Shown here piece after piece: positions 47 to 22,417 of a DNA stretch of 22,890 nt. The translations under genes were made by a program, and so were the position numbers. The first letter of the stretch is position 1; each line of letters begins with the position of its first letter. Location: the IMG/VR virus record IMGVR_UViG_3300032083_003297, positions 1-22,890 of that record. One strand, 5' to 3'. Below the pieces are notes generated by a model. The model did not search any database. It worked only from the letters and a program-made list of their open reading frames with translations, and had not been told where the DNA came from. Source of the DNA: a virus.

Positions 47-508
47 TTATCTATGATATGCATTAGGTTCGTCATATTGTACCAATCCAGTATACTCTGA
101 TGATGAACGAATCTTTTCACCTAATCCGTCTACCATTGGTATTTCTAATTCTTGACATACTTTAAATTCAAAGATATTGTTCTGGTCTATTTGTCTATCT
201 CCACCATTACAAAATATTAGTTCGTCCATTGGTTTCATTCGTTTAATCATACGAATAGTTTCACATACTGATTTATCTTTATCACAAGATAAGATTGCTT
301 CATCAACCATATCTAAATGGTATACGATTTCTAATCTATCTGTTTCAATCATAAACTCATCAGCTTTTTTCAATAAACATTGTTCACGATTATTAACGAT
401 AACGATTAGTTCGTCTGCTAAATCCTTAGCCATTTTAAAGTATTCTATGTGTCCTACGTGTAGTGGGTCAAAGTATCCACTAACTATTGCTGTTTTTGTT
501 CTTTTCAT
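47..508 (-). CDS. Cytidylyltransferase-like nucleotidyltransferase
   Basis: A 153-residue protein of the nucleotidyltransferase superfamily that includes glycerol-3-phosphate cytidylyltransferase and the adenylyltransferase domain of ADP-heptose synthesis. Such enzymes join CTP or ATP to a phosphorylated alcohol or sugar. The N-terminal nucleotide-binding signature GYFDPLHVGH (residues 11-20) contains the HxGH motif. CNGGDR (100-105) and a late Ser-rich IRSSSEY (133-139) lie where the family has its second substrate loop and its ISSxxxR-like motif. I chose the start at 508 because AAGGA lies about 8 bases upstream and the motif begins at the expected distance. The same frame is open up to 607, but that extension is the shadow of the overlapping 50-residue gene. 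The substrate is unknown. A role in modifying host surface sugars or making a nucleotide-activated precursor is a guess. Confidence 0.85.
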   Translation of the reverse strand: MKRTKTAIVSGYFDPLHVGHIEYFKMAKDLADELIVIVNNREQCLLKKADEFMIETDRLEIVYHLDMVDEAILSCDKDKSVCETIRMIKRMKPMDELIFCNGGDRQIDQNNIFEFKVCQELEIPMVDGLGEKIRSSSEYTGLVQYDEPNAYHR

Positions 509-632
509 TTTTCTTGTCCTTCTTTCCAAATATTTTTTCCCAATTCTCATCATACTTCTTTTTGTTTGATGTTCTTGGTGCCGAACCTTTTGTGGTTCCG
601 GAATCATATATTGATTTATTTTTCTTTGTCAT
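480..632 (-). CDS. Small basic protein (50 aa), overlapping both neighbours
   Basis: A 50-residue, Lys/Asn-rich, very hydrophilic protein (begins MTKKNKSIYDSG, contains YDENWEKIFGKKDKK). Its ATG lies inside the last codons of the nuclease gene (17-base overlap), and its stop lies 29 bases inside the nucleotidyltransferase gene, each in a different frame. This bridging position is typical of translationally coupled phage genes and explains the 123 bases that would otherwise be a gap. The W/YxxIFGKK pattern recalls small uncharacterised phage proteins, but I cannot name a family. There is no clear Shine-Dalgarno sequence; coupling to the upstream gene is likely. It could bind nucleic acid given its charge, which is inference. 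Confidence 0.6.
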   Translation of the reverse strand: MTKKNKSIYDSGTTKGSAPRTSNKKKYDENWEKIFGKKDKKNEKNKNSNS

Positions 633-960
633 TTAATATTTTGATTAAATTGTTTATTTCCATTGATACGTATGTTTTACTACGATTTCTTTTGAATACC
701 AATAAAGGTATATGTGGACCAGCATTATCTTCTGCCTGTTCTAATGAACTCCATATATTAAGTTTTTCTTGGTTTTTACATTCCACCGAAAATGGAAATA
801 ATTTACGAGCTGCTGGTGATAATAGAACATCTTCACCAGAATCACCCATTGTTGTTGAGCGAACATCATCTGGTTCTAATTCTTTGAATGTTTCTAAGAT
901 TAAATCACGAACGTCGTTTTGTAACCTTTTACCTTTATTCTTAGCTGAACGAGTTTTCAT
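616..960 (-). CDS. PD-(D/E)XK-type nuclease, Holliday-junction-resolvase-like
   Basis: A 114-residue protein with the hallmarks of a small PD-(D/E)XK nuclease. A basic N terminus (MKTRSAKNKGKR) is followed by an amphipathic helix, then GED (42-44) supplying the metal-binding acid, the ECK motif (60-62) supplying the E-x-K pair, and a following helix with Gln75 and a conserved-looking SLEQAEDN segment. The closing strand is PLLVFKRNRS (85-94). Single-domain phage proteins of this type are often annotated as Holliday-junction resolvases or generic endonucleases, acting in recombination or in processing branched DNA before packaging. It is the first gene after the promoter-like element at 965-977. 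The leader is very short, and an upstream GTG is possible but unsupported. Confidence 0.75.
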   Translation of the reverse strand: MKTRSAKNKGKRLQNDVRDLILETFKELEPDDVRSTTMGDSGEDVLLSPAARKLFPFSVECKNQEKLNIWSSLEQAEDNAGPHIPLLVFKRNRSKTYVSMEINNLIKILNDKEK

Positions 961-964
961 ACAC

Positions 965-977
965 TAATAAATATAAG
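965..977 (-). promoter_or_regulatory. Promoter-like repeated element, copy 1
   Basis: Minus-strand CTTATATTTATTA, identical over 13 bases to the core of the elements at 9948-9965 and 12728-12745. It ends only 4 bases before the ATG of the nuclease gene. If it is a promoter -10 region, the transcript would be leaderless or nearly so. It follows the only sizeable non-coding gap of the left half. Confidence 0.5.
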
Positions 978-1098
978 ATAAAACTTCTAAAATGAATTTT
1001 TTTTTATTTTAAGAAAATAAATGTGGTTTTTTTAAAAAAAGCACATATATATTATTGTAGGTAGGTAGGACGAAAAGGAAAAATACTATATACCAGTA
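978..1098. other. Non-coding gap with inverted repeats
   Basis: The longest stretch without a gene in the window (about 120 bases), separating the metallopeptidase from the nuclease. It is dominated by A and T runs, with a short GTAG tandem (around 1057-1069) and the inverted repeats listed separately. I see no open frame with a start signal. The likely content is transcription termination for the upstream unit and leader for the downstream one. Confidence 0.5.
1022..1045. terminator. Near-palindrome, possible bidirectional terminator
   Basis: TGTG, then T7, A7 and CACA form a 24-base inverted repeat with a single C/C (G/G) mismatch, flanked by A/T runs on both sides. On the minus strand it could fold after transcription of the metallopeptidase gene. 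The stem is almost all A-U and has no real loop, so termination activity is uncertain. Confidence 0.3.
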
Positions 1099-1100
1099 TT
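1082..1100 (-). terminator. Weak hairpin with T run after the metallopeptidase stop
   Basis: On the minus strand AATACT and AGTATT can pair (6 bp, loop of 7) immediately after, and partly within, the stop codon, and are followed by a short T run. The layout is that of an intrinsic terminator, but the stem has only one G-C pair. It may work together with the palindrome at 1022-1045. Confidence 0.3.
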
Positions 1101-1512
1101 AAAAATCACCTTTCCACCTTTTTCGATATTCGTTTTTAGCCCATCTTTCAGCTTCTATTTCAAACTTATTATCATCATATCTATCTTTACCAAGAGCTAT
1201 TTGTCTATTCATTTCCATTTCATATTCGTTTTTGTATTTACTTTTACCCTTATCTTTGGCATCCATTGCGTGTTTGATTTCGTGTAATACTGAAATGATG
1301 AAGTCGGACTTCTTACTATAACTTGTTCTAATTCTTATTTTGTTTCTATCAACATCATAATCACCTTTGAGTGACTTATCTGAAAAGTTAGTTTCTACAA
1401 TCTTTATACCTGGTGGAATCTTTCTACTATAATGATTTATCAAGAACTCAGCAATTCTCAATGATTCTGTTTTTCCTAATGCTTCGTAAATATATTTTAA
1501 ACTATTTTTCAT
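1099..1512 (-). CDS. HExxH zinc metallopeptidase-like protein
   Basis: A 137-residue protein with HEIKH at residues 77-81, preceded by a hydrophobic helix (FIISVL). A later EAExxA motif (120-124) is a plausible third zinc ligand. The arrangement HExxH...E is that of small gluzincin-type domains seen in many phage and anti-repressor-type proteases. There is no signal peptide, so it would act in the cytoplasm, perhaps in virion maturation or regulator cleavage; the substrate is unknown. The ATG lies inside the end of the Nudix gene (11-base overlap, different frame), indicating translational coupling. A candidate terminator follows its stop codon. Confidence 0.65.
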   Translation of the reverse strand: MKNSLKYIYEALGKTESLRIAEFLINHYSRKIPPGIKIVETNFSDKSLKGDYDVDRNKIRIRTSYSKKSDFIISVLHEIKHAMDAKDKGKSKYKNEYEMEMNRQIALGKDRYDDNKFEIEAERWAKNEYRKRWKGDF

Positions 1513-1903
1513 TTAAATATTTCCTTAAATAATATATGTCCTCTGGCATTTCATCTTTTTGATAATACCCAAAGTCTGTGTGTTCGTGGTCGAGTGTTGG
1601 TGTTAGTTCGTGGTCTGATAAGTAATGAAACACATACATATAATTACCACCCTTTTCAATAGGTCTTTCTACTTTGTATAAGAACTTTGGTTCGTGTGGT
1701 AGTTCTAATTGTGTTTCTTCTTTTAATTCTCTTACCATAGATTCTCTTGGTGTTTCTCCTTTACGCATATGTCCTTTCGGTATAGAGTAATTACCCTCTG
1801 CTTTCTTTAATAATAATATTGTGTTAGCGTGTTCAATGATTACACCAGAAGTTGAATCTATATCGTCTGGGTGTTTTTCTAATAATGTTTCTAATTTAAT
1901 CAT
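1502..1903 (-). CDS. Nudix hydrolase
   Basis: A 133-residue protein of the Nudix superfamily, which hydrolyses nucleoside diphosphates linked to another moiety (for example oxidised dNTPs, ADP-ribose, NADH or capped RNA ends). The Nudix box spans residues 44-66: Gly44, Glu50, then REL-x-EE at 58-63. The usual Gly two residues after the EE pair is Gln65 here, while the catalytic REUxEE acids are intact. I place the start at 1903 because GAGGAGTG lies just upstream and the ATG overlaps the stop of the Cys-rich gene. A longer frame to 1936 would add 11 residues with no better signal. Nudix genes are common in large phages, where they may clean the nucleotide pool or alter host RNA. The substrate cannot be read from the sequence. 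Confidence 0.88.
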   Translation of the reverse strand: MIKLETLLEKHPDDIDSTSGVIIEHANTILLLKKAEGNYSIPKGHMRKGETPRESMVRELKEETQLELPHEPKFLYKVERPIEKGGNYMYVFHYLSDHELTPTLDHEHTDFGYYQKDEMPEDIYYLRKYLNEK

Positions 1904-2114
1904 TACACTCCTCACATTTACAATTACATAACTCATCTGGTAATTCTGTTCTCGTTACTTCGTTACCTTGTGAGTCCTTTATAGTTAATTCACTTAATTC
2001 TGTTTTCTTTACTAATATATCGTCTGTTGTTAAGTTATCTATATGACAACCACAATCATTACACACCTTTGTTAAGGTTTGATTTCCATTTGCTGTTATT
2101 TGCAATTTAATCAC
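1896..2114 (-). CDS. Small Cys-rich, probably metal-binding protein (72 aa)
   Basis: A 72-residue protein starting with GTG (MIKLQITANG...). It has two cysteine clusters, CNDCGC near residues 18-23 and CNCKCEEC close to the C terminus, suggesting a zinc-binding or other metal site formed by the two ends. The start is supported by an AAGG a few bases upstream and by the GTGA overlap with the stop of the 28-residue gene. The 3' end overlaps the Nudix start by 8 bases and contains its Shine-Dalgarno sequence. No family is recognised. It could be a small zinc-ribbon regulator, which is a guess. Confidence 0.6.
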   Translation of the reverse strand: MIKLQITANGNQTLTKVCNDCGCHIDNLTTDDILVKKTELSELTIKDSQGNEVTRTELPDELCNCKCEECND

Positions 2115-2197
2115 AACTTACCTTCATCTTTCCACATAGTAATTTGAACATAAGATACTACCATTACTACACAAATTATTGTTATTATATATTCCAT
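2111..2197 (-). CDS. Tiny membrane protein (28 aa)
   Basis: A 28-residue frame (MEYIITIICVVMVVSYVQ then a polar tail) that is one transmembrane helix with a short charged end. Its ATG shares one base with the stop of the anchored coiled-coil gene upstream (TAATG), and its TGA overlaps the GTG start of the Cys-rich gene. It fills exactly a gap that would otherwise be 82 bases. Very small phage membrane proteins can be holin-like or lysis regulators, but nothing specific identifies this one. Confidence 0.5.
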   Translation of the reverse strand: MEYIITIICVVMVVSYVQITMWKDEGKL

Positions 2198-2919
2198 TAT
2201 CTCCAATCCCATACTTTAATTAAATTATATGATACACCAATGCCAACTATTGGTTCAGTTAATCCTGTTACTCCGTTGTATGCAACTCCAATAAATGGAC
2301 CAAAGCTAAACTGATTTCTTGGTGGTTCTATTTGTTGGATTTCACCCCTTCCTCTAATCGTTATACCACCTAAGTATACATCATCAATATACGAAACAAA
2401 TTTGTCTTTGTCAAGCTTTTCTATCTTTGGTGATAAATTAATTTCACCAATAGTATTGACATTTACTTTTTTAGTTGCCAGATAATCATCTTTCCAAGCA
2501 ACCAATACTTGACCTTTGGTTTCATATTGTCCAATACGATTGACTTGTTTATCTGTAAACTCAAATCTATCATTAAAGACTTTACCATTAGTCATTGATA
2601 CTAAAGGTTTTGATGAAAGTATTTCAACCTTTTGTTCCAAGTCATATAATCTTTCCAATAGTAATACATTTTCGCTACCACGAGTTTTATTGTGCTTATC
2701 CAAATCTAATAATAGTCTTTGATTTTGAACAACCAATAAATTAACTCTGTCTTCTAATCCATTGATTACTTTTTCTTGAGCGTCAACTTTCAATCTCAAT
2801 GTAGCAAACTCACGATATAATTGTTTTACATCATATTTGTTTATTAAGATTGTAGTTCCTAATAATAAGATTGCACTTACTAATGAAAGTATATCTTTAT
2901 AGTATTTCTTGAACCGCAT
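2197..2919 (-). CDS. Membrane-anchored coiled-coil protein, spanin-like in layout
   Basis: A 240-residue protein. A single N-terminal membrane helix (about residues 9-27, ILSLVSAILLLGTTILI) is followed by a long heptad-rich coiled coil (about 35-105) and a C-terminal region rich in beta-strand patterns and ending in aromatic residues (GVSYNLIKVWDWR). This is the layout of a type II inner-membrane protein reaching into the periplasm, as in inner-membrane spanins, though much longer than lambda Rz. The final segment resembles the last strands of an outer-membrane barrel. The gene overlaps the end of the second CsgG-like gene by 23 bases, which ties it to that module. It may connect inner and outer membrane. 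No family is recognised with confidence. Confidence 0.65.
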   Translation of the reverse strand: MRFKKYYKDILSLVSAILLLGTTILINKYDVKQLYREFATLRLKVDAQEKVINGLEDRVNLLVVQNQRLLLDLDKHNKTRGSENVLLLERLYDLEQKVEILSSKPLVSMTNGKVFNDRFEFTDKQVNRIGQYETKGQVLVAWKDDYLATKKVNVNTIGEINLSPKIEKLDKDKFVSYIDDVYLGGITIRGRGEIQQIEPPRNQFSFGPFIGVAYNGVTGLTEPIVGIGVSYNLIKVWDWR

Positions 2920-3412
2920 TACCTATCGCCTCTTTCAGTGCTCCACCGAGTTCACTTCTATCGAACGGTAATTCTTCATTTATCTGAAAACCAGTAGAAC
3001 TAATATCTCTATCGATAGTTCCTGTTCCATTACCACTTACTACTTTACCTGTTTTTTTATTTTTCAATTCAACAACTACACGAACTTCTGTTGTAGTGGT
3101 TTCTCTTCTAAATAATCCAAGTATTGTTGTACTGGTTCTTGGTCTTCCAAGATAAACAACTCTTGCTGTCATTTCAAAATCTGAATCTTGTTCTACCAAG
3201 TCATATCTTGAATCCATTACATTTTCTGTAAGTATGTTTGAAATACCTAAGAAAACTCTTGAGTCTTCTAATCCCACAATCTCTGCTTGATTAACAAAAT
3301 TGTTAATACTCAAAGTAGGTGTTTTTAGGTTATCTTGTCCAACCATTGTTGGTTGTGGTAATTGTGCAAACACTACACTAAGTAGTATTGCGATTGACCA
3401 TAGTTTCTTCAT
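2897..3412 (-). CDS. Secreted CsgG-like protein 2
   Basis: A 171-residue protein with a signal peptide (MKKLWSIAILLSVVFAQ, cleavage expected after the Ala-Gln region). There is no lipobox cysteine. The body follows the CsgG/LpoB-type alpha/beta pattern: an early SRVFLGISNILTE helix (51-63), a strand pair around VEQDSDFEMTARVVYLG (73-89), the segment VRVVVELKNKKTGKVVSGNG (110-129), comparable to the 'vrlvnvkTG' strand of CsgG, and a closing helix GALKEAIGNAVQEIL (157-171). CsgG forms the outer-membrane export channel for curli. This copy is short and may only share the fold. The start at 3412 is set by AAGGAG six bases upstream. It is separated from a CsgG-like lipoprotein gene by an outer-membrane barrel gene and a tiny ORF. 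Confidence 0.65.
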   Translation of the reverse strand: MKKLWSIAILLSVVFAQLPQPTMVGQDNLKTPTLSINNFVNQAEIVGLEDSRVFLGISNILTENVMDSRYDLVEQDSDFEMTARVVYLGRPRTSTTILGLFRRETTTTEVRVVVELKNKKTGKVVSGNGTGTIDRDISSTGFQINEELPFDRSELGGALKEAIGNAVQEIL

Positions 3413-3422
3413 TTTTATCTCC

Positions 3423-4409
3423 TTAAAAATTAGTTCCAAATATAATAGAATAACTTATGTTTCTTTCACCTAAGTCATTAACTAATGTATTGTATCCTAT
3501 ATTGAATCCAAAATTCATCTTAAAGGTTTCAGTAAAGTTTATATCTACACTTGCGCCTGGATAAATCAATATAGGACTTTCCAATAATAAATATTTGTTT
3601 TCTGTTTTTAATCCCTCAAAATATCTAAAAATCGTATAACTTACAAAAGTCTGTAAATTTATATTAGTATCTCGAATTTTAATTGGATATCTATATCCAT
3701 ACATTAAATTTAAATTTAAAAAGTTTTCTCTTGATATTTGACCTAATGATGAACTCAATAGTCCAACTTGTCTAACATCATTACGAATTACTTTTCCATA
3801 ATTTCCTGTGATTAACCAATCACTACCTTCAAAAGTTCTGTAATACAATGCTCCTGCATTCCAAAAAGCATTTTGATTTTTTTCTTTTGACTTTTTTGTA
3901 TTACCATATAATCCCAATACCTTTTTTAAATCTAAAGTAATGTTTAAAGTGTAGTTAAACTCTTTGGTTAAATCAAAATTTTCTTGTGTATAAACCGAAT
4001 TAAATGTTGCGACTGAACCATAATCATAAAAAGTATTAACGATATCTCCACCGATAAAACTTGGTTCCGAAGCTCCAATATCTTCTTCGTCTTCCCTTTC
4101 TAATTCATCTGCTAAGTTTGTCGAAATAGCTGATGCCAATGCTTCCTCTGCGACATTAACCGCACAAGGAAATAGTTTTTCAAAATCACTATAAACTTGT
4201 TGTGTCCAATTTTGTAGTGTTCCGTCTGCTACTTCTAACCAAGTAAAAAATCTTCGTTGGTTATAATAAGTAACCCAAAATCCATTCTCAGTTGTTTCAG
4301 TTGTATAATTTAAATTAACCGCTTGTTGATTACAAGGGTCTATATAATTATAACCGAAACCTTGTCCGTAAAGACTACTAAATACTAATAATGTGAGTAA
4401 CCATTTCAT
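3423..4409 (-). CDS. Outer-membrane beta-barrel candidate
   Basis: A 328-residue protein with a signal peptide (about residues 1-16, MKWLLTLLVFSSLYGQ). It has two cysteines that could form a disulphide, an acidic segment (about 100-113, EREDEEDIG), then a C-terminal half of alternating strands ending in Phe (SIIFGTNF), the usual C-terminal signature of outer-membrane barrels. I do not recognise a family. It is not similar by eye to CsgF. It lies between two CsgG-like genes, so an outer-membrane partner role in the same module is plausible. The start has no strong Shine-Dalgarno sequence, but the gene follows a 41-residue ORF by 5 bases. Confidence 0.7.
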   Translation of the reverse strand: MKWLLTLLVFSSLYGQGFGYNYIDPCNQQAVNLNYTTETTENGFWVTYYNQRRFFTWLEVADGTLQNWTQQVYSDFEKLFPCAVNVAEEALASAISTNLADELEREDEEDIGASEPSFIGGDIVNTFYDYGSVATFNSVYTQENFDLTKEFNYTLNITLDLKKVLGLYGNTKKSKEKNQNAFWNAGALYYRTFEGSDWLITGNYGKVIRNDVRQVGLLSSSLGQISRENFLNLNLMYGYRYPIKIRDTNINLQTFVSYTIFRYFEGLKTENKYLLLESPILIYPGASVDINFTETFKMNFGFNIGYNTLVNDLGERNISYSIIFGTNF

Positions 4410-4414
4410 TCATT

Positions 4415-4540
4415 TTATAATCCAAATAATTGTATTTCAATAAACAAAAGGGTTGCAAAAAATGTCAATGTAAATAATATTGCTTTTGGAATCTCCAAGT
4501 AATCTTTTTTCTTTCTTTCTCTCGAACAACAATCAGACAT
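4415..4540 (-). CDS. Tiny membrane protein (41 aa)
   Basis: A 41-residue frame. A charged N terminus with a CC pair (MSDCCSRERKKKDYLEIPK) is followed by a hydrophobic helix (about residues 19-40, AILFTLTFFATLLFIEI). Its ATG shares one base with the stop codon of the CsgG-like lipoprotein gene (TAATG), and it ends 5 bases before the barrel gene. The topology of one helix with a positively charged N terminus is compatible with a holin-like or accessory membrane peptide, but no family is recognised. Confidence 0.55.
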   Translation of the reverse strand: MSDCCSRERKKKDYLEIPKAILFTLTFFATLLFIEIQLFGL

Positions 4541-5241
4541 TACCAACCTCTCTTTTCTAATCTTCTCAATACATTTGCTACCGCAGTTATTACTGCTCCT
4601 GTTGTAGCGAACGATACGGTTGATTGGTCAAAAGACATATCAAGATTTTTCAATACACCTTCACCTTCTTTTGCACTTGTTCCTAATCCACTACCTGTAA
4701 TGTATTTACCTGTTTCAACGTTTACTAAACGAACTTGGATACCTACCATTGTAGTGTTGGTTAGTTTTGCTTTTCTTCTTTTGATTTCTTCTTGATTGGA
4801 TACTGCAAAGTCATAAATTTCTGCATAAGCAAACCATTTAGTTGTTGCGAATGTACCGACATTTAATTCTTCTTCAAGTAATCCACTAACACTTCGTTCC
4901 CACTCTTGAACCATTTTGTTAATGACTTCGTCTTTTTCTTCTACGAAATAGAAACGACCTGCTTCTTCTAAGACCTCGATAATTCGATTGGTCATACCAA
5001 ACCCCACTCTTTTATCTCTTAGTTCTGGATATGCATTTAGAATATTTTCATTAATACTGATTTGAATTAATTGAATTCCTTCTGGTTCTCCGTCAAACCA
5101 TTTGATATCATCTAAGGTTTTTTCTGCTTCATAAGATGCGATTTTAGATTGAACTTTTGTTTTACCTGATTGTGCTTCAACACTTGATGTTGCACAACCT
5201 AATAAAAACATTGTTATGAATAAACTTAATATGTGTTTCAT
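4540..5241 (-). CDS. CsgG-like outer-membrane lipoprotein
   Basis: A 233-residue protein with a lipoprotein signal peptide: a hydrophobic stretch ending in LLGC, with Cys16 as the lipidation site, followed by a Ser/Gln-rich linker. The rest matches the CsgG pattern: IQLIQISINEN (56-66), the helix MTNRIIEVLEEAGRFYFVE (83-101), WFAYAEIYDF (136-145), VGIQVRLVNVETGKYITGSG (166-185) and a closing helix with LRRLEKRGW at the C terminus. CsgG is the nonameric outer-membrane lipoprotein channel for curli subunits. Curlins (CsgA/B) and CsgE/F are not seen here. I chose the start at 5241 because GAGGAG lies 7 bases upstream and the signal peptide then begins normally; a longer frame to 5316 overlaps the ferredoxin gene. 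Curli-secretion-like genes have been noted in some other marine myoviruses, from memory. Confidence 0.8.
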   Translation of the reverse strand: MKHILSLFITMFLLGCATSSVEAQSGKTKVQSKIASYEAEKTLDDIKWFDGEPEGIQLIQISINENILNAYPELRDKRVGFGMTNRIIEVLEEAGRFYFVEEKDEVINKMVQEWERSVSGLLEEELNVGTFATTKWFAYAEIYDFAVSNQEEIKRRKAKLTNTTMVGIQVRLVNVETGKYITGSGLGTSAKEGEGVLKNLDMSFDQSTVSFATTGAVITAVANVLRRLEKRGW

Positions 5242-5245
5242 TTTT

Positions 5246-5533
5246 CTACTCCTCGAAAAAGTTTGCGTTAATTTCTGTATACTTCTCGTATTCTTCTGGT
5301 AAGTCATCTTCATCATAGATTGCGTCTACCGGACATTCGGGTTCACACGCACCACAATCAATACACTCATCTGGGTCAATGTATAATTGTAATCCTGCAA
5401 CTGATTCTAACCCTTCAACTTCTGCTCCTGCTCCGTCTTTATCAATTGGTCCGTGAATACAATCTACCGGACAAACTGCGACACAAGCAGTATCACAAGT
5501 TGAGATACAAGGTTCCGTAATTACAAATGTCAT
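5246..5533 (-). CDS. Bacterial-type dicluster [4Fe-4S] ferredoxin
   Basis: A 95-residue acidic ferredoxin, complete and start-supported (TAATG overlap with the gene upstream). The second cluster motif is canonical, C-x2-C-x2-C-x3-CP (DECIDCGACEPECP). The first cluster region has Cys9, Cys13, Cys17, Cys21-Pro and Cys25 (CISTCDTACVAVCPVDC), the spacing of the ferredoxin family beginning 'ITEPC', in which one site can hold a [3Fe-4S] or [4Fe-4S] cluster. An insert rich in Gly and Glu separates the clusters, and the tail is acidic. Such proteins carry low-potential electrons in the cytoplasm. No reductase or acceptor enzyme is visible in the window, so it probably feeds a host enzyme or a phage enzyme elsewhere. 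Its stop codon lies within 4 bases of the CsgG-like start and its last codons provide that gene's Shine-Dalgarno sequence. Confidence 0.93.
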   Translation of the reverse strand: MTFVITEPCISTCDTACVAVCPVDCIHGPIDKDGAGAEVEGLESVAGLQLYIDPDECIDCGACEPECPVDAIYDEDDLPEEYEKYTEINANFFEE

Positions 5534-5661
5534 TACTTTTTAAATCCTAACATCATTAATTGAACCATAAAGATTAATCTTTTCAATAAAGATAAATCAT
5601 CTCGTTTCAACTCTTTTTGTAAGTGTTTAATTTTTGCTTCGTTTGTTTTAAAGAACATCAT
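5533..5661 (-). CDS. Small protein with hydrophobic C terminus (42 aa)
   Basis: A 42-residue frame (begins MMFFKTNEAKIKHLQ, ends LIFMVQLMMLGFKK). A charged amphipathic first half is followed by a Met/Leu-rich hydrophobic segment flanked by lysines. Both ends share one base with neighbours (TAATG with the anchored coiled-coil gene and TAATG with the ferredoxin gene), so it occupies the gap completely. It may be membrane-associated. No family is recognised. Confidence 0.55.
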   Translation of the reverse strand: MMFFKTNEAKIKHLQKELKRDDLSLLKRLIFMVQLMMLGFKK

Positions 5662-6074
5662 TATTTTTTAAATTTTGCTAATGGGTCACCGTGAAAATCA
5701 ACTTCGTGTTTTTCAATATGTTTGTGAGCTGCATTTGCATTATTTCTAACTGATTTAATTTCACCTTCTAATCTAACGATATCACCTGTGATACCTGATA
5801 AATCAACACCTTCAAAAGAATCGATTCTTTCTTTAAGATAATCAATATCTTTTTCAAAAGCATCTAATTTTTGTCCAACTAATTCTATGTCTGATGTTTC
5901 TGCGAATCCTTGAACTACTTCTTCTAATGAATCTATTCTACCTGTGAAAGTATACCAACCTGCGATTAAAGATGATAGTACCGTTACGATAGCTATGATG
6001 TTTTGTATTGATAATCCAAACTTTGCGTTTTGTAAATTATCTACTAATTGTTCTGCGTCTACTTGTTTTGCCAT
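5661..6074 (-). CDS. Membrane-anchored coiled-coil protein (137 aa)
   Basis: A 137-residue protein: a short polar N terminus, one membrane helix (about residues 22-44, IIAIVTVLSSLIAGWYTF), then a long region of heptad-like Leu/Ile/Val spacing (about 46-118) and a His-rich end (AAHKHIEKHEVDFHG). The topology suggests an inner-membrane anchor with a periplasmic or cytoplasmic coiled coil. The start at 6074 has a good AAGGACGG site. It sits in a run of tiny membrane genes, so a role in envelope attack or in anchoring is plausible, but the family is unknown. Confidence 0.65.
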   Translation of the reverse strand: MAKQVDAEQLVDNLQNAKFGLSIQNIIAIVTVLSSLIAGWYTFTGRIDSLEEVVQGFAETSDIELVGQKLDAFEKDIDYLKERIDSFEGVDLSGITGDIVRLEGEIKSVRNNANAAHKHIEKHEVDFHGDPLAKFKK

Positions 6075-6084
6075 TTTTCCGTCC

Positions 6085-6198
6085 TTATTTAAATTTGCTG
6101 TCTATCCAGCACTTTCCGTAATATAATATCCCTAACCATATTGTAAACAATATTCCGTCAAGGTATCCTATTGAGTTCCAAACACTTACAATATCCAT
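6085..6198 (-). CDS. Tiny membrane protein (37 aa)
   Basis: A 37-residue frame (MDIVSVWNSIGYLDGILFTI, then WLGILYYGKC and a polar end). It consists mostly of one aromatic-rich transmembrane helix. The ATG shares one base with the stop codon of the PorV-like gene (TAATG), and the stop lies 10 bases before the next start, upstream of its AAGGACGG site. It fills the gap exactly. Function unknown. Confidence 0.55.
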   Translation of the reverse strand: MDIVSVWNSIGYLDGILFTIWLGILYYGKCWIDSKFK

Positions 6199-7052
6199 TA
6201 TAAGTCAAACCCAAAAGAAATCATTAATGTTTCGTTAAAAAAACTATCTGTATTGTAATAATATGCTAATGATATATCAACAATACCTGCGTTAATACCA
6301 CCACCAAATGTTAGATAGTCTACATCAAATTCTGATTCTGTGTAGTATCCTAATTTTAAACTTGCGATACCTAAATTGTATTCACCACCTAAACCGATTG
6401 AATTGTAGTCTTCAAAGAATTTTACATCTGATGATAGTGTAAAGTCTCCAAACTTCTGTCCAACACCAATACCTACCGACATAGGTAGATTTAGTTTTTG
6501 GTCTAAAAATTCAGTTTCTCCACCAACATCTTTTAGAACTAATCCTAATGATGTGTTTCCAAATTCTTTGTAAGCACCAATATCAAATCCATAATTCATC
6601 TTGACATCATAGTCATCAATAAAACTATGATTGTATAGATTTAATCTTGCACCTACTAACCAATCTCTAAAACCAAATCCATAACCACCACTTACTCTAA
6701 ATGATGATGATTCAAAATCTCCCAACACTACTCCGTATTGGTCTGATTGAATTTGTGTTCCATAATTAAAGTAAAATATCTCGGTTGAAAAACCTCTCTT
6801 TGATGTTATGGAAATGCTTTGATATCCCATATCATCAGTAAGATTAGGTAACCAATCAACATATGATACTTCGTGTGTATGTTCATTTAATCCTGCAAAT
6901 GCTGGATTATGAAATATATGTTTTGGGTTTGCATTTGCAATACCGACATTACCCATTGCTGCACTACTTACACTTGGATTAAGTGTAAAGATATTATTTG
7001 CTTGTGCGAATAATGTTCCTGTTAATACTAATAATGTTAATAATCTTTTCAT
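6198..7052 (-). CDS. PorV/PorQ-like outer-membrane barrel protein
   Basis: A 284-residue protein with a signal peptide (MKRLLTLLVLTGTLFAQ). Directly after it comes the family signature around residues 26-55: SVSSAAMGNVGIANANP...FHNPAFAGL, which matches the 'aaMGgagvA...NPAgla' region of the PorV/PorQ and UPF0164 group of FadL-like barrels. The remainder is alternating amphipathic strands ending in a hydrophobic strand (ETLMISFGFDL). PorV binds the C-terminal sorting domains of T9SS cargo at the outer membrane; PorQ is also part of the cell-surface attachment complex. This copy is shorter than typical PorV (roughly 390 residues, from memory). It starts 9 bases after the T9SS cargo gene, with AGGAG overlapping that gene's stop, so the two are probably co-translated partners. 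Confidence 0.75.
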   Translation of the reverse strand: MKRLLTLLVLTGTLFAQANNIFTLNPSVSSAAMGNVGIANANPKHIFHNPAFAGLNEHTHEVSYVDWLPNLTDDMGYQSISITSKRGFSTEIFYFNYGTQIQSDQYGVVLGDFESSSFRVSGGYGFGFRDWLVGARLNLYNHSFIDDYDVKMNYGFDIGAYKEFGNTSLGLVLKDVGGETEFLDQKLNLPMSVGIGVGQKFGDFTLSSDVKFFEDYNSIGLGGEYNLGIASLKLGYYTESEFDVDYLTFGGGINAGIVDISLAYYYNTDSFFNETLMISFGFDL

Positions 7053-7061
7053 TACTTACTC

Positions 7062-9926
7062 CTATTTTAAAATTGTAAATTTCTTTGTTTTGATTTTGTT
7101 TTCAGTTTCCATTAAGAATACATAAATACCTGAATCTAAATTCTGATAACCACTATGGAATTGTGGGTCAGATGATTCTGGTAATTCATCAAACTTAAAG
7201 TTGTGTAAACCTTCTTGTACTGATTCTTCTAAGATTGTTGCAACTTTCTGTCCGTTAATATTGTAAATACTAATCTTAACATCTCCGGCTTGTTCCATAA
7301 AGAATTGGAAGTTTATGTCGTTGTGTTCTGATTGTATAAATGGATTTGGATAAACATAAGTTAATTCATCTTCTTGTGGTTGTCCACCACCGAATGCCCA
7401 ATACTTATTCCAAATACGAATATTACCACTTTGTCTTTCCATTAGTAAGTCGTCTCCGTTTGGATTACCTGCTGCATATTTACCTACGAATTGTAAGTCT
7501 GCTGTAATCCACTCGTCTGGATTGTTTTCACTAATTAATGATTGGAATACTAATTGTAATCCAACGATTTCATCAGTAATGTAGTAATCGATTGGTGCGT
7601 TGTTTGGTGAATTTTCTAATGAACCAAATGAAATTGTTTTATATCCTTCTTCGTCAATCTCTGATTCATTTAAATAAGTCATCCAAGGACCTGGTAATAA
7701 ACCTGTTTGAGCATCTAAGAATTCTAATTGGTCTGCTTTGAATCTTACTTCAAATTCAAATCCTGCTATCTTATTAACCTCACCAGTCATTTCATCTGCG
7801 ATTGGTGTAATGGTTAAAGGAACTACAACTTGATTACCCATTTGAACTTTAACACTTCCGTCTGCTGGTAATGATAAACGAACATCTGGATTTTCAACTA
7901 TTGTTCTTGGTGATGATGTTCTTGCCCACTCGGTTGGTGGTGAACCATTACCCCAACGATAAAATGTTGTTCCATCTACGGTTGGTGTAATTGCTGTTCC
8001 GTTGTTGTCAACTTTAACACCTGTTAAATTCATATCACCTGTAAAGTAATATGCGATATCACTATCGTTTGATGTTCCAATAATATCTACTTGTTTAGAA
8101 GCGTCAGTAGTTTTAAATAAGTAATCTGGATTTACATCATCTCCAAATGTAGAACTACCTGCTCCTAACTTAATTGATAATGTGTCTAATCCTGTTTGAA
8201 CATCATCCATTAATGGATTTAACCAAATAACTCCACCTCCGTCTTGTGTTAGTGTTGCGGTTTCTTGTGCTAAATCATCATCAACAAATATACTGAACTC
8301 TCTTCTTTGGTTTCTTGTGTTTCCGTCGTGTGCTTGATAATAATTTAAAGTTTCATCATTGTTTCCAGATTTTAAATTATCAATACTTGACCATTGTTGA
8401 TAAGTTTCTCCATTGTAGTGTGTGTAGTTTGTTTCAAATACTCCTGATGTGTATGCCCATAAGAAATATGTGTCGTTTAATTGGAACTTGTCATCTCCGT
8501 CTACATCACCGATTAAATACGCACTTGGTGTTGCAATATCAATATCGGTTTCGTTATCAAATTTATTTGATTGGAAATTAAATGATGCGATTGCGTCATT
8601 GATGTTGGTGATTGCTCCTCTATCTAATAAATAAGTTGTGTGGTCTCCAACATAGTCATCTGCTTCTGGTGGCCAGAACGACATACGATATCTGTTGTTT
8701 CTCGGTAAAGAAATATTGAAATATCCTTTATCATCTGTGTATGTCCAATACCAATAACTAACTCCTCTAAATCCGTCGTTTTGGATTTTCTGGTCTGATG
8801 TTGTTCCTGCATTTTGTTCATAGTATCTCATATGTTGATACCCTAATGCAAATGTTCCAGCGTTATCATAACTACCCATAACATCATCATTTAAAGATTC
8901 ATCTGTTAAACTTGAAGGATAATTAACATCTCTTGGATTTCTCCAATTAGAAAAATTGTCTGGATTGGTTTCATCTAATTCAAAGATAACTTTCCACATA
9001 GCATATTTGTTTCTTGAATATGCATTTGTTCCGTCGTATTCTCCAATGTATCTCATATATCCTTCAACATCAACAAGTTTCGGGTGTAAAGTAATATCAC
9101 CACGAGCAGCTCCGTTAAAGGTTCTTTCACCTGTATAGTAATTACCCCAATTTCCGTCAATGTAAACTTTATAATCTAAGAAATATGCGTCTGATACATA
9201 AGTGTAATATCCTGATGACCCGTCATAAAATGTTGGTATTCTAAATGCTTTTGGTGCAAAGTCATCAACAACATCATTTATTTTAAAATATAATTTTATT
9301 ATTTGTGCTTGGTTTCCATTACCAGTTCCGAATGTTTTATCTGGTGTTCCATCATTATCTGCGTCAACTCCGTGTGATACCATAGTAACTCTTAACCAAT
9401 CGTATCTTGTATCGGATATTGATTCTTCTACTAATGTTTCAGATGTTCCGACTGCTAATGAATCTTGATAACCGACATTTTGATAATGAACTACTTCAAA
9501 TGAATAGTCTGCTCCTGATGATTCATCACCTTCAGTCCAACCTGATATATGACTTCCTTTAACAACTTTGGATTCTCCTTGACTCCAAGCATTAACTGAT
9601 GTTTCACCTGATTCTACCCAAGTGATTAAGTCGTTATCGAATGCAATATCAAACCTAAGTGTAGTAATATCTTCCCCTACATCATCTAAGGTAACTTCCA
9701 TTTCCAAAACTTTATCTCTCCAGATATCGAAGTTATTATTATCGAATGCTGGATTTGACGCATCTGCTGCTAAGAAATCGTCTAAATCTTGTGTAACTGA
9801 GTTTTTCCACCAAGTTTGTGGTGAATCCCAACTACCTAATTGTTTTACTCTTATGATTGGATTTTGTGCAAAAACTATTCCAAACATAACCGCTGACATA
9901 ACCATTTTTTTCATAAAATGAAACAT
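7062..9926 (-). CDS. Large secreted protein with T9SS sorting domain, cohesin- and dockerin-like parts
   Basis: A 954-residue secreted protein. Signal peptide at residues 1-21 (ending MFGIVFAQ). An N-terminal domain (about 72-220) has a cohesin-like strand pattern (LRFDIAFDNDLITWVES). A calcium-loop-like DADNDGTPD lies at 188-196, and a dockerin/EF-hand-like GDVDGDDKFQLNDTYFLW at 473-490. A second, clearer cohesin-like domain spans about 681-821 (VVVPLTITP, IAGFEFEVRFKADQLEFLDA). The C-terminal type A T9SS sorting domain (about 857-954) has YPNPF, VKISIYNINGQKVATI, LDSGIYVF and the final KKFTILK. T9SS proteins cross the outer membrane and are anchored or released after this domain is cleaved. 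I set the start at 9926 because GGAG lies 6 bases before it; the upstream ATG at 9938 has no such site. First gene after the repeated promoter-like element. Confidence 0.85.
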   Translation of the reverse strand: MFHFMKKMVMSAVMFGIVFAQNPIIRVKQLGSWDSPQTWWKNSVTQDLDDFLAADASNPAFDNNNFDIWRDKVLEMEVTLDDVGEDITTLRFDIAFDNDLITWVESGETSVNAWSQGESKVVKGSHISGWTEGDESSGADYSFEVVHYQNVGYQDSLAVGTSETLVEESISDTRYDWLRVTMVSHGVDADNDGTPDKTFGTGNGNQAQIIKLYFKINDVVDDFAPKAFRIPTFYDGSSGYYTYVSDAYFLDYKVYIDGNWGNYYTGERTFNGAARGDITLHPKLVDVEGYMRYIGEYDGTNAYSRNKYAMWKVIFELDETNPDNFSNWRNPRDVNYPSSLTDESLNDDVMGSYDNAGTFALGYQHMRYYEQNAGTTSDQKIQNDGFRGVSYWYWTYTDDKGYFNISLPRNNRYRMSFWPPEADDYVGDHTTYLLDRGAITNINDAIASFNFQSNKFDNETDIDIATPSAYLIGDVDGDDKFQLNDTYFLWAYTSGVFETNYTHYNGETYQQWSSIDNLKSGNNDETLNYYQAHDGNTRNQRREFSIFVDDDLAQETATLTQDGGGVIWLNPLMDDVQTGLDTLSIKLGAGSSTFGDDVNPDYLFKTTDASKQVDIIGTSNDSDIAYYFTGDMNLTGVKVDNNGTAITPTVDGTTFYRWGNGSPPTEWARTSSPRTIVENPDVRLSLPADGSVKVQMGNQVVVPLTITPIADEMTGEVNKIAGFEFEVRFKADQLEFLDAQTGLLPGPWMTYLNESEIDEEGYKTISFGSLENSPNNAPIDYYITDEIVGLQLVFQSLISENNPDEWITADLQFVGKYAAGNPNGDDLLMERQSGNIRIWNKYWAFGGGQPQEDELTYVYPNPFIQSEHNDINFQFFMEQAGDVKISIYNINGQKVATILEESVQEGLHNFKFDELPESSDPQFHSGYQNLDSGIYVFLMETENKIKTKKFTILK

Positions 9927-9947
9927 TGTTTTCTCCATTGAGTTTAA

Positions 9948-9965
9948 TTCAATAATAAATATAAG
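9948..9965 (-). promoter_or_regulatory. Promoter-like repeated element, copy 2
   Basis: Minus-strand CTTATATTTATTATTGAA, identical over 18 bases to the copy at 12728-12745. It lies in the 50-base gap before the T9SS cargo gene, 21 bases from its start codon, and is followed by the Shine-Dalgarno GGAG. Recurrence at gaps only suggests a phage promoter. The match to the T4 late-promoter sequence TATAAATA is imperfect on this strand. Confidence 0.6.
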
Positions 9966-9976
9966 ATTGTTAAAAA

Positions 9977-10966
9977 TTAGATATCAAAGCGAACTATGAA
10001 ACTGGTTTCAATGTCGTCTGATAATTTGATAGGTTTTGCGAGTTTTCCGTGAGCCAATAGTTCATTATTTTCACTATATAAACCTATATCAGTCACAAAA
10101 GGTTTGAAATTAGATTCAGTTACAAAACCCAATGCTTCTGATGCTGCATTATAAAATGTAGCGTAACTTCCTGTTCCTTGTCCACTTGGTTGGTCACCTG
10201 GTCCAAAGTAATTAGACATTGAAACAACACCCTCAGCCATTGTAATACTACCACTTCTATCCGGTGTAATACTAATATTTGTTGTTGTATTGAACTCGTG
10301 TGGTTTTACCCTTACACGATATTCGTACTGATAATGAGTTTGTGTTGCTTTGTATTTTAAATTATATGAAGTTCCAAATCCAACGTCTTTATATGAACCA
10401 GTATCAGTCATTACAAATAGTCCTTGTTCATAAAAAATATTTCCTACTTCCGAACCACTACCACGAGTTGCTGCTGTGGTTGAACTACCACTTAAAAAGT
10501 TGTTTGTTTTAAATGTTGAAAAACTTGCTGAATGATTATTGTCATAAAGATTTCCTTCTCCGTCATCTCTAATGTCAAATGTTTGTCCACCAACAGTAGC
10601 TGATAACTCAATACTACCTGGTTTTATTTTCTCACCATACAATTCCCTTGCTACACTAATTACTGATGCTGAATCGTGTAGATTTCTATTCATAGAACCA
10701 GTATTTACATACTCCTTTCCGTGTTTAGAATAAAATAGATTGTGTAACATTGTATATGTTGGTAATCCAAAGTAATTTGTAGATACTGAACCAGATGTGA
10801 TTGTTGTGATTGCGTCTGATGAACTCACATAATTAAACTTAGAACCTGAACGAGCTTTGGTAGCAAATACACCACTACCACTATCGTTATTGGTAAATGT
10901 AAAGTTCTTAAAAGACTGAAATGCTTTTATAGTTGCGTCGTTATCTAAGTCAAGATTTTTGAACAT
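9977..10966 (-). CDS. Virion structural protein, paralogue of the next upstream gene product
   Basis: A 329-residue, Ser/Thr/Gly-rich protein with no signal peptide. Elements include KIKPGSIELS (about 114-123), RDDGEGNLYD (about 133-142), GNIFYEQGLFVMTD (about 175-188), and a C-terminal block TDIGLYSENNELLAHGKLAK (about 290-309) followed by a beta-strand end. The same order of elements occurs in the 341-residue protein encoded just upstream, so the two arose by duplication. Proteins of this type recur beside baseplate genes in marine myovirus sequences, from memory, and are probably tail or neck components. The start is supported by AGGA. It is the last gene of the block before promoter-like copy 2. 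Confidence 0.7.
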   Translation of the reverse strand: MFKNLDLDNDATIKAFQSFKNFTFTNNDSGSGVFATKARSGSKFNYVSSSDAITTITSGSVSTNYFGLPTYTMLHNLFYSKHGKEYVNTGSMNRNLHDSASVISVARELYGEKIKPGSIELSATVGGQTFDIRDDGEGNLYDNNHSASFSTFKTNNFLSGSSTTAATRGSGSEVGNIFYEQGLFVMTDTGSYKDVGFGTSYNLKYKATQTHYQYEYRVRVKPHEFNTTTNISITPDRSGSITMAEGVVSMSNYFGPGDQPSGQGTGSYATFYNAASEALGFVTESNFKPFVTDIGLYSENNELLAHGKLAKPIKLSDDIETSFIVRFDI

Positions 10967-10975
10967 TAGTTTGTC

Positions 10976-12001
10976 CTAAAAATCAAGTTTCACTTTAATA
11001 ATAGCTTCCCTTGAATATGATTTTAATAATGGTTTACTTAGTTTAGCAATCGCCAATAATTCATTGTCATCATTGTAAAGACCAACCTGTGTAATAAAAG
11101 TTTTAGGGTCTTTAAAGAAAGTTCCTTGTGTTAGACTTCCGTCCGAACCAGTAGAGAAAGTTGGATTAGAACTAAAATTAAAGTCTTTATTATTTGCTCT
11201 AATAAAGTAATTTGTTGAACTAATTTCTTCTTCTCTTCTTGCTTGGAAACTTGAACCTGATTTAATTGAATTATAGAATGCTTGTGGTCTATTATCAAAT
11301 GTATCTGTACTTCTTGGATTTGCTGGGTCTAAACCACCACTCGCCTCCATTTGAGATGCGTCTAATAATATAATTCCTAAGTCTGGATAGAATAATCCTA
11401 ATCCACCACCTGGTTGACTTGCTGCTGCTGTATTGATTCCGTCATTAATAGAACCACTAACAACATTGAATACTCTACCACCCTCATTTACGACTGGATT
11501 ACTTCCAGCACCACTATCATCAATTAATTGAATCTTTGCTGCTTTACCAGCCATCTGACCTGTTAATTGTAATTCCCAATTACCTGGGTCAATCTTTTCT
11601 CTTTGTCTTGCTCTTTGGAACGAGATAAAGTAAAAGTCATCACTTGATGATGGTGCACCTGAAAATGTAAATTCATCTGTGTTTGGTGCCAAGATAACAT
11701 TTCTAAATTGTCTATATAGAGCTGCTGTCTGTCTACCACCTGTTGTCAGTTTAGTTGTATTACCTGCTGAACCACTCCCGTGAATATTTGCATATCCAAC
11801 TGCGATTTGTGTTTCTGCTGATGTATCTGTATTTGGGTCTACATTATATAGTTCCAATACTGAACCTGTTATATTTCCATTACTTGACTGAGTAAAAAAT
11901 GAAGTAAGAGTTGAACTTCCACCACTCCACAATCCACTTGAGATTGTAGTTCGTTGATTTTCAACAATGTCGTTTTCTGGATTAAATCTTTGAAATGCCA
12001 T
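10976..12001 (-). CDS. Virion structural protein (341 aa), paralogous to the following gene
   Basis: A 341-residue protein rich in Ser/Gly/Thr. Recognisable parts are ALYRQFRNVILAP (about 93-105), a SSDDFYFISFQRARQREKI segment leading into DPGNWELQLTG (about 137-147), a LFYPDLGIILLDASQ strand (about 203-217) and the C-terminal block TQVGLYNDDNELLAIAKLSK, ending in an IIKVKLDF strand. This matches the architecture of the 329-residue neighbour. No enzyme motif is visible, and a virion role is inferred from context and composition. AAGGAG six bases upstream, overlapping the stop of the preceding gene, fixes the start. Confidence 0.72.
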   Translation of the reverse strand: MAFQRFNPENDIVENQRTTISSGLWSGGSSTLTSFFTQSSNGNITGSVLELYNVDPNTDTSAETQIAVGYANIHGSGSAGNTTKLTTGGRQTAALYRQFRNVILAPNTDEFTFSGAPSSSDDFYFISFQRARQREKIDPGNWELQLTGQMAGKAAKIQLIDDSGAGSNPVVNEGGRVFNVVSGSINDGINTAAASQPGGGLGLFYPDLGIILLDASQMEASGGLDPANPRSTDTFDNRPQAFYNSIKSGSSFQARREEEISSTNYFIRANNKDFNFSSNPTFSTGSDGSLTQGTFFKDPKTFITQVGLYNDDNELLAIAKLSKPLLKSYSREAIIKVKLDF

Positions 12002-12011
12002 TACCTACTCC

Positions 12012-12689
12012 TTATACTTTACTTGGGTCTGCTTTTACTGAGATAGCTACGGTGAATTGTGCACCTGAACTATTACCAGTTACTGACAAGTTTGTGTTTG
12101 TTAATGTTGTTAATGACCTTGAAATAACTCTTACACTTTTACCGACAACTGATATTGAACGTTTTCTTTCTGCTTCATTCATAAATACTGGTGTTGTTGC
12201 TCCAGCGTTAATGAAGTCCTGTTCAAGTCTACCACCTGGAAGTGTTTTTCCACTTGGTCCAGCTCCACCACTTAATGACAAGTTAGCAACATCTGCGTTA
12301 AACAATGTAAATGTATATGTTTCGTTTGGTGCATTTCTTGTGTTAGGTGATACGGTTTGTGTAATACCTGCTCCATTGAAAGTCAATGAAGGTGAAGGTA
12401 ATTCCAATATAGGAAGCTTGTTTGTTTCCTTTGGAAGTGTTGTCAATTTATATCTCATTAGTTGATTCTCATCTACGAACGCTTCTAATAGTGGCATATT
12501 CTCAATGACTGCCGCATAGAAGTTTGACCCGTTTGGGTGTGATGTATCGTAAAGATTGTAATCAACCTCGTCGTCTGCTAATGCAAACTTTGTAATTTTA
12601 AATTCGTTCTGCCCTCTTGCCAAAAGTTCACGACCTTTTTTTGTCAAGATAGCGTCTACTGTTATACTCGTGTTGTCTAAAAATCCCAT
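12012..12689 (-). CDS. Virion structural protein (225 aa)
   Basis: A 225-residue protein. Its N terminus (MGFLDNTSITVDAILTKKGR, then LLARG...FKITKFALADDEVDY) is a pattern I recognise from structural proteins of uncultured marine myoviruses, in which a small alpha/beta head is followed by a beta-rich tail. Here the tail carries Gly-rich (GGAGPSGKTLPGG) and Thr/Ser-rich strands. It is the first gene after promoter-like copy 3, with CAGGAG about 10 bases upstream of the start, and is followed directly by the two paralogous structural genes, so these three probably form one late unit. Its exact place in the virion is unknown. Confidence 0.7.
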   Translation of the reverse strand: MGFLDNTSITVDAILTKKGRELLARGQNEFKITKFALADDEVDYNLYDTSHPNGSNFYAAVIENMPLLEAFVDENQLMRYKLTTLPKETNKLPILELPSPSLTFNGAGITQTVSPNTRNAPNETYTFTLFNADVANLSLSGGAGPSGKTLPGGRLEQDFINAGATTPVFMNEAERKRSISVVGKSVRVISRSLTTLTNTNLSVTGNSSGAQFTVAISVKADPSKV

Positions 12690-19287: not shown

Positions 19288-20445
19288 TTATCTCACAACT
19301 CTAAATTCATAATTGTCATCATAGTAATTTATTTGTTCGTCAGTTGTTCCACTTCCACTAACTACCTTAACACAAAAACGATAATTTCTTTCTGCTTGAA
19401 ATGCATTCATTTGAACTCTAAAAAAGTTTCCGTCTGAATCACAACTAATTCTTGAACCACTACCAAAAGGTATAATTACTTCTTCGGTATCAGCGTCTCT
19501 TACTTCATATTCTACTGAAGCACTTGGTAAATATTTAACACCCAATTCACTTGGCGTTGCGCTAAAACTTGATGAAGGATAAAGTTCTCTACCAACTACT
19601 CTAAATTTTACAATTGACTTTTCTTTGTATTCTGTTTTCATATTTTTAAAGTAAACTTTTAATCTTTCTAAGTCTGTTGAACTTAAAGCAGATAAACTTC
19701 CTGTTGACCAAGAACTATCGTCCCACTCTGCTTCTAATTTAGGTGGATAGATTGTATGGGTTTCTCTTGAGAAATATTGTAGATTTCCTAATCTTGAACT
19801 ATCACCCTCTTGTCCGGTATTAAAGTCAAACATAGATGAACTTGGGTGGTCTCCATAAGAACCACTATCTTCTCTTTTGACTATAAAACCATTATTAGGA
19901 TAAACTGAACTTGAATATATAAAGTTGTTTACCATATCGGTAACATCTGCCCTAACATCTTTTTTATCAAATGTTAAGTTGTATGATGATGACACTTCGT
20001 ATTGTCCACTACTCGCCGTAAACCAAGAACCACCGTCAGTCAATACTGAACCCGTTACCCAAGGTGTTTTTGCCTCGTGGTCACGATATTGATAGGTCGC
20101 TCCATTTTGTGTTACTGGGTCGTGGTCAAGTTTTCCTGAACCTTGTTTCCAACTACCACTAACCATATAAATGTGTAGTGATTGTTCAACTTCAACTTCA
20201 TCTGATGTTGCGTCAAATAAATTTAAATAATATTTTGCCGTAGAAGGTATTTTTCCGTCTTGAACTGATTTAGAAATAAAACTTAAATCAAAATCAATCA
20301 ATACTCTTGATACATTTCCTACCGTACCATTATTGTTTACAACTTTATTTATTTCTAATATTTCATCAATACCCGTATTTCTGGAAGCTGTTGTTCCGCC
20401 AGAATAAAGTGTTGTATCTCTTTTTCCAAATTCAAAATAATGCAT
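19288..20445 (-). CDS. DNRLRE-like beta-sandwich protein, probable fibre or adhesion component
   Basis: A 385-residue protein. The first about 200 residues follow the DNRLRE-type pattern of carbohydrate-active and surface proteins: SRVLIDFDLSFISKSV (about 45-60), a STAKYYLNLFDA strand, the VSGSWKQGSGKLDHDP 'W.xGxG' segment (about 94-109), TPWVTGSVL, and DVRADVTDMVNNFIYSS (about 158-174). The C-terminal part is another beta-rich domain (RVVGRELYPSSSFSATP, ending YEFRVV). DNRLRE domains occur on cell walls and in glycan-binding proteins. In a phage tail cluster this suggests a receptor- or glycan-contacting structural part. The gene follows the gp6-like gene with a TAATG overlap. Confidence 0.68.
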   Translation of the reverse strand: MHYFEFGKRDTTLYSGGTTASRNTGIDEILEINKVVNNNGTVGNVSRVLIDFDLSFISKSVQDGKIPSTAKYYLNLFDATSDEVEVEQSLHIYMVSGSWKQGSGKLDHDPVTQNGATYQYRDHEAKTPWVTGSVLTDGGSWFTASSGQYEVSSSYNLTFDKKDVRADVTDMVNNFIYSSSVYPNNGFIVKREDSGSYGDHPSSSMFDFNTGQEGDSSRLGNLQYFSRETHTIYPPKLEAEWDDSSWSTGSLSALSSTDLERLKVYFKNMKTEYKEKSIVKFRVVGRELYPSSSFSATPSELGVKYLPSASVEYEVRDADTEEVIIPFGSGSRISCDSDGNFFRVQMNAFQAERNYRFCVKVVSGSGTTDEQINYYDDNYEFRVVR

Positions 20446-22415: not shown

Positions 22416-22417
22416 TT

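Follow-up and report, generated by a model that had tools for sequence, protein, structure and literature searches.

A phage gene pair for a type A T9SS cargo and its candidate carrier, a PorV/PorQ-family barrel, within a conserved envelope cassette

We analyzed a viral DNA of 22.9 kb, which is the whole IMG/VR viral record IMGVR_UViG_3300032083_003297 (the window), and found that it encodes a cargo protein of the type IX secretion system (T9SS) next to an outer-membrane barrel of the PorV/PorQ family. Nearly all genes of the window lie on the minus strand, including all features of the pair, its cassette and the baseplate region whose coordinates are given below. The explanation toward which we lean is that the pair represents a phage-encoded T9SS cargo and its own dedicated outer-membrane carrier or anchor, which would display a cohesin-type body on infected cells. 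A bolder form of this idea, possible but tentative, is that this phage lineage acquired a private T9SS carrier, i.e., its own PorV-type shuttle operating on the host translocon, so that phage cargo would be extracted and anchored apart from host cargo and form a virus-specified cohesin-dockerin coat on infected cells.

The cargo gene (7062-9938) encodes 958 amino acids from its first ATG and 954 from its second (9926), a start kept in most relatives. Its product comprises a signal-peptide-like start, a virus-specific body, a dockerin-like stretch, a cohesin-like domain and a C-terminal sorting domain (CTD). The signal-peptide-like start (MFHFMKKMVMSAVMFGIVFAQ; 9864-9926) was recognized by inspection only and is also visible, on the same basis, in relatives with a complete start. 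An earlier note on this DNA, made by reading the sequence, had proposed a type A T9SS sorting domain at the cargo end (7071-7355); profile searches bore this out, with both TIGR04183 (36.6 bits, cut-off 23) and PF18962 (29 bits, cut-off 27) exceeding their cut-offs and an E value of 5.1e-12 in the whole-record search. The cargos of relatives scored 24.8-36.9 bits in TIGR04183. The lysine near the C terminus, K949, which precedes F950, is invariant across 15 aligned cargos.

The cohesin-like domain (7407-7886) remains below the Pfam threshold, as PF00963 has a cut-off of 24.1 bits and the window cargo reached 19.1 bits and relative L126 23.0 bits. It was assigned through Foldseek and through homology to clear phage cohesins: the C-terminal 230 residues of the cargo, spanning the cohesin-like and sorting domains, are homologous to phage proteins of 630 amino acids (hhalign E 1.2e-17), in four of five of which the homologous region scores 34.6-48.4 bits against PF00963. 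These 630-residue proteins have clear cohesin and sorting domains together with a weak dockerin-like stretch, and the dockerin-like motif of the cargo (GDVDGDDKFQLNDTYFLWAYTSGV; 8442-8519), itself weak, was called by inspection and by resemblance to them. The presence of cohesin-like and dockerin-like parts within one cargo chain would permit chain-to-chain assembly. The body of the cargo is long and strongly conserved among relatives, and it received no fold call, AlphaFold modeling being poor outside the C-terminal domains (predicted local distance difference test, pLDDT, 39.5). Among 296 Bacteroidota genomes, relatives were found only for the last ~105 profile positions of the cargo, which correspond to the CTD, and none for its body except on a phage contig binned in a metagenome-assembled genome (MAG). 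Judging from these comparisons, the cargo appears to be a viral body carrying a cellular address tag.

The barrel gene (6198-7052) lies on the same strand 9 bases from the cargo gene, exactly as the earlier note had placed the two open reading frames, and encodes a 284-residue, 14-strand outer-membrane protein of the PorV/PorQ family with a signal-peptide-like start. It exceeds the cut-off of the PorV/PorQ subfamily model NF033709 (98.6 bits, cut-off 90), as does the barrel of relative L143 (90.1 bits); that of L127 falls below it (66.5 bits). The window barrel is far below the equivalog cut-offs for PorV (NF033710, 43.5 bits, cut-off 250) and PorQ (NF033711, 69.3 bits, cut-off 220). The previous description of a PorV/PorQ-like barrel accordingly stands at the level of the subfamily and not at that of either equivalog, and profile scores place the protein within the family, probably as neither PorV nor PorQ proper. 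When the viral barrel profile was compared with solved structures, PorV of the T9SS translocon was the best match (E 2.2e-12) and TodX the next (0.01). The AlphaFold model has 14 strands and an N-terminal plug (pLDDT 76.5; predicted TM score, pTM, 0.76); Foldseek placed two PorV chains at the top (1.6e-10) and FadL after them (2e-7), and a second structural aligner left PorV and FadL almost tied (Z 30.1 vs 28.9). As fold alone hardly separates the two, the barrel was assigned to its family by sequence, on which a FadL/TodX transporter identity is the weaker one. The concern raised earlier that a non-T9SS transport family might prove the better match is thus answered, PorV ranking ahead of both FadL and TodX. 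We also rejected the PorP/SprF barrel plus type B cargo class, since type A is the CTD model matched here and PorV the barrel family.

A tree that also included cellular PorV and PorQ grouped 33 viral barrels in one separate branch (support 100/97); the cellular rows of this tree are the best matches from the 296 Bacteroidota genomes only, and a closer cellular source may be absent from them. A search of BFVD returned no viral protein with a convincing PorV fold. Three faecal records filed as 'Bacteriophage sp.' match PorV and were discarded as further PorV-encoding phages, the two inspected being bacterial chromosome by gene content. Records L204 and L205 (MT836897.1 and MT836010.1), filed under that name but bacterial chromosome in their gene content, carry SusC/SusD-like, mnmA-like and ispF-like genes by eye. 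On the Bacteroidales-like scaffold L205, a cellular gene with a sorting-domain-like end lies directly upstream of a PorV-family gene (312-3168), a possible cellular precedent for the arrangement.

In solved translocon complexes, a near-invariant lysine near the cargo C terminus contacts Asn87 and Phe115 of PorV (PMC10994853); equating K949 with that lysine rests on position. The HMMER alignment matches the PorV stretches YLTDLAND and YFGFG, which hold Asn87 and Phe115, to the viral stretches WLPNLTDD and YFNYG. The corresponding viral elements are loop L1 (WLPNLTDDM; 6828-6854) and hairpin L2 (FNYGTQ...GDF; 6714-6770), and both stretches (WLPNL.DDM and F.YG.Q) rank with the best-conserved parts of the viral barrel, mean pairwise identity being 0.70 in L1 vs 0.39 over the whole barrel. 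L1 is of the PorV type; PorQ is gapped there. Because the details of the lysine-PorV contact differ between cargos (PMC10994853), the conserved loops and the invariant cargo lysine are taken as support for a CTD contact, not as proof of it.

Scans with both proteins and their alignments located the region of the pair on 77 distinct IMG/VR contigs. In 34 of the 34 contigs with readable sequence beyond the cargo stop, the barrel is the next gene, at a spacing of -4 to 495 bases, an association beyond chance. Across divergent viral contigs the pair recurs beside baseplate genes, as the earlier note expected. The 33 barrels compared form 28 groups at 90% identity, so the contigs that bear the pair are not copies of one genome. 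Exactly one sorting domain was found in each of 15 of 16 long records; the sixteenth contains no more than the opening portion of the cargo. Purifying selection acts on the cargo and barrel genes alike, with ratios of nonsynonymous to synonymous substitution (dN/dS) of 0.05-0.25. Relative to the window, one contig has baseplate genes that are 91-96% identical and a cargo that is 68% identical, and another has baseplate genes at 43-55% and a cargo at 91%; from these identities, the cargo seems to travel independently of virion genes.

The pair belongs to a larger envelope cassette. Read as transcribed, the window holds a gp25-like gene, a gp6-like gene, further structural genes, two fibre/baseplate-like proteins, the cargo and the barrel; after these come a coiled-coil protein anchored in the membrane, a ferredoxin and several exported envelope proteins in one block. 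The first protein after the barrel (137 amino acids; 5661-6074) has one membrane helix and a coiled coil by inspection and is inner-membrane spanin/holin-like, with a weak PHROG spanin match. The 4Fe-4S ferredoxin gene (5246-5533), absent from the cassettes of some relatives, shares 71 bases with the cassette gene that follows it. L018/L040 have a ferredoxin homologue at a different place, among their baseplate genes (1379-1660); the ferredoxin thus moves within these genomes. Three genes with homologues in Flavobacterium phage immuto encode a conserved exported, lipoprotein-like envelope protein (4540-5316), a putative outer-membrane protein (3423-4409) and a second exported envelope protein (2897-3439), and a 240-residue membrane-anchored coiled-coil protein with a weak Rz-like spanin match follows (2197-2919). 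A label of CsgG curli pore, given by eye to the 4540-5316 and 2897-3439 proteins, was dropped, as there was no Pfam CsgG match and no CsgG chain among the PDB profile matches.

Among 50,697 phage records, the 4540-5316 protein matches only immuto, in four near-identical records. The immuto cassette (MW353176, 12691-16409) belongs to a run of genes encoding a C-type lectin protein, a second exported protein, a cohesin and sorting-domain protein (243 amino acids; TIGR04183 45.4 bits), a 103-residue membrane protein and then the homologues of the three envelope genes in the window's order (4540-5316, 3423-4409, 2897-3439). It thus shares with the window a cohesin and sorting-domain protein followed by the same three exported genes, and differs in that its cargo is much smaller and stands beside other exported cohesin-/lectin-type genes, and in that no PorV-family gene was detected in the full 160-kb genome, where the same search found exactly one sorting domain. 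At the start of this cassette (L202, 8860-9858), the signal-peptide-like C-type lectin protein has a dockerin-like tail and could be the partner of the cohesin. Searching with the immuto protein and an alignment of it, we collected 83 immuto-like viral loci with 3 kb upstream (about 22 groups at 90% identity; the loci are related and do not represent 82 independent events); a sorting-domain protein lies within 3 kb in 82 of the 83, and a PorV-family barrel within that distance in 0 of 83. Cargo and envelope genes thus form a widespread unit, and the barrel has so far been seen only in the window's lineage. Since immuto-like phages carry cargo without barrel, the cargo is probably older than the barrel, and a gain of the barrel in the window's lineage, rather than losses elsewhere, is the simpler reading.

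The presence of the cassette in a Flavobacterium phage points to a Bacteroidota host. SprA, the only T9SS part searched for, was not found in 15 long, incomplete phage records, so the translocon of the host T9SS would be needed. A Flavobacteriaceae MAG with SprA (2445 bits) and PorV includes one phage contig, which may be there through a binning error; 397 genomes of the MAG's family contained no further such contig.

We propose that during infection Sec would export both cargo and barrel, as their signal peptides, seen by inspection, suggest, and that the barrel would insert in the outer membrane. The host T9SS translocon would then move the cargo across the outer membrane by means of its sorting domain, and the phage barrel, in place of or besides host PorV, would take the sorting domain from the translocon and retain the cargo on the cell surface. 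This carrier or anchor role is modelled on the SprF-type shuttles for type B cargos (PMC12618676) and on PorQ for PorZ (PMC5562754). Immuto-like phages would depend on the host's own PorV. Once at the surface, the cargo may act with the other exported cassette proteins, most likely modifying the surface of the doomed cell in adhesion, superinfection exclusion or egress.

Several observations weigh against this proposal. The barrel is ~100 residues shorter than PorV and under the PorV equivalog cut-off, and could act differently; immuto-like phages manage without it, so the cassette does not generally need it; and the sole MAG link to a host is the possible binning error mentioned above. In favour of the proposal, distances of the CTD and the barrel covary when the cargo body is controlled for (near clade, partial Mantel 0.44, p 0.005), an association that is lost for the body once the sorting domain is controlled for; but downstream genes covary with the barrel just as strongly. 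Because the sorting domain and the barrel are neighbours, their covariation may stem from joint recombination, and physical linkage can explain it; the mirror-tree evidence for their coupling is confounded by linkage.

Other explanations were weighed against the same evidence. The barrel might be a decoy PorV: docked on host SprA with phage cargo held fast, it would block or monopolise export through the host T9SS and so deprive the cell surface of host proteins that are possible phage receptors. Its retained PorV-type loops, the part that carrier binding to SprA plays in the PorV cycle (PMC10994853) and the provision of one barrel per cargo gene would all suit such a device; we nevertheless judge it unlikely, as immuto-like phages have cargo without barrel and a mere plug would not need the long, strongly conserved cargo body. 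We are similarly doubtful that the cargo works in the virion as an adhesin or tail-fibre-like protein, its T9SS-like domain being only an Ig-like module or a way to decorate virions on exit. The cargo does come directly after the 329-residue fibre/baseplate protein, a position that tail fibre and spike genes occupy in immuto, but it has a signal-peptide-like N terminus and a family-specific sorting domain that matches cellular cargo, its identity is decoupled from that of the baseplate genes among relatives, a 3567-residue fibre-like protein occurs elsewhere in a long relative, and the immuto homologue lies ~70 kb from the baseplate genes, beside envelope genes.

That the cassette is a lysis or egress module, in which spanin-like coiled-coil proteins, the surface protein and the barrel weaken or bridge the outer membrane late in infection, seems improbable. 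Its late-region position, the two membrane-anchored coiled-coil proteins and the grouping of several exported envelope proteins in one block agree with such a module; however, the spanin matches, at E about 0.005, are weak, the block yielded no endolysin, and a sorting domain with a cohesin suggests display, not disruption. An origin of the pair as a contig artefact or as passenger host genes, i.e., a host fragment joined to phage DNA or a recent functionless capture, we consider practically negligible. T9SS parts are otherwise cellular, but the same region recurs on the 77 viral contigs, which disposes of the host-chromosome or chimeric assembly that the earlier note had named as a threat to its reading, and the pair combines purifying selection with a cargo body lacking cellular relatives and barrels on a branch of their own.

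Compared with known systems, the preferred reading of a cargo with its own carrier or anchor has partial precedents. T9SS cargo encoded by phages has been reported in Cryophage (PMC7468147) and near BACON proteins of crAss-like phages (PMC6949934). These are likewise phage proteins with T9SS sorting domains; the available portions of the two papers describe enzymes, a PA14-domain protein or BACON proteins and mention no phage carrier barrel, whereas the window cargo is of cohesin type and accompanied by an envelope cassette. Of the earlier view that a phage with its own substrate and carrier would be unusual, the part on the substrate thus needs correcting; in a partial search of the literature we found no paper describing a phage-encoded T9SS carrier or this cassette. 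Cognate pairs of cargo and shuttle genes have been described in cells for type B CTDs (PMC12618676). The SprB/SprF-type pairs of Flavobacterium johnsoniae, which combine a type B CTD with a PorP/SprF barrel (PMC12618676, PMC9143113), similarly link a cargo gene to its own outer-membrane shuttle gene, while the window pair has a type A CTD and a PorV/PorQ-family barrel and is phage-encoded. PorV, the general type A carrier (6h3i, 8gl6), shares with the viral barrel its family, the 14-strand fold with plug and the conserved L1 and L2, but has ~390 residues vs 284, and the viral barrel stays below its equivalog cut-off on a separate tree branch. PorQ, which acts with PorZ in the attachment complex (PMC5562754), is comparable as a short PorV/PorQ-family barrel anchoring one dedicated surface partner; the viral barrel differs in its PorV-type L1 and falls below the PorQ cut-off.

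The remaining genes place the pair in its phage context. The gp6-like baseplate wedge and gp25-like genes (20445-22825) mark the contig as a contractile-tailed phage; the gp6-like gene (20445-22415) matches phage baseplate wedge proteins, and the gp25-like assignment comes solely from synteny with immuto. The two fibre/baseplate-like proteins (329 and 341 amino acids; 9977-12001) lie directly upstream of the cargo. The 3567-residue fibre-like protein of the long relative L192 (IMGVR_UViG_3300027801_002586, 1365-12065) is repetitive and possibly the long tail fibre of that phage. Past the cassette, the window (47-1936) carries cytidylyltransferase-like, PDDEXK nuclease, HExxH metallopeptidase-like and NUDIX genes. 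An 82-kb relative (L189, L190) has many metabolic-looking genes; by eye, these may include S-adenosylmethionine synthetase, asparagine synthase, carbamoyltransferase and peptide deformylase.

In summary, phage T9SS cargo has so far been noted only in passing, without a tested mechanism. The retention of the cassette in dozens of viral contigs that have diverged from one another suggests that phages infecting Bacteroidota-like hosts may make regular use of the host T9SS to alter the cell surface, one lineage supplying a putative carrier of its own. As immuto, which has the barrel-free form, is a cultured phage, laboratory strains offer a direct way to test the export step. The viral barrel would also serve as a compact, naturally occurring PorV with which to learn what regions of the carrier engage the sorting domain.

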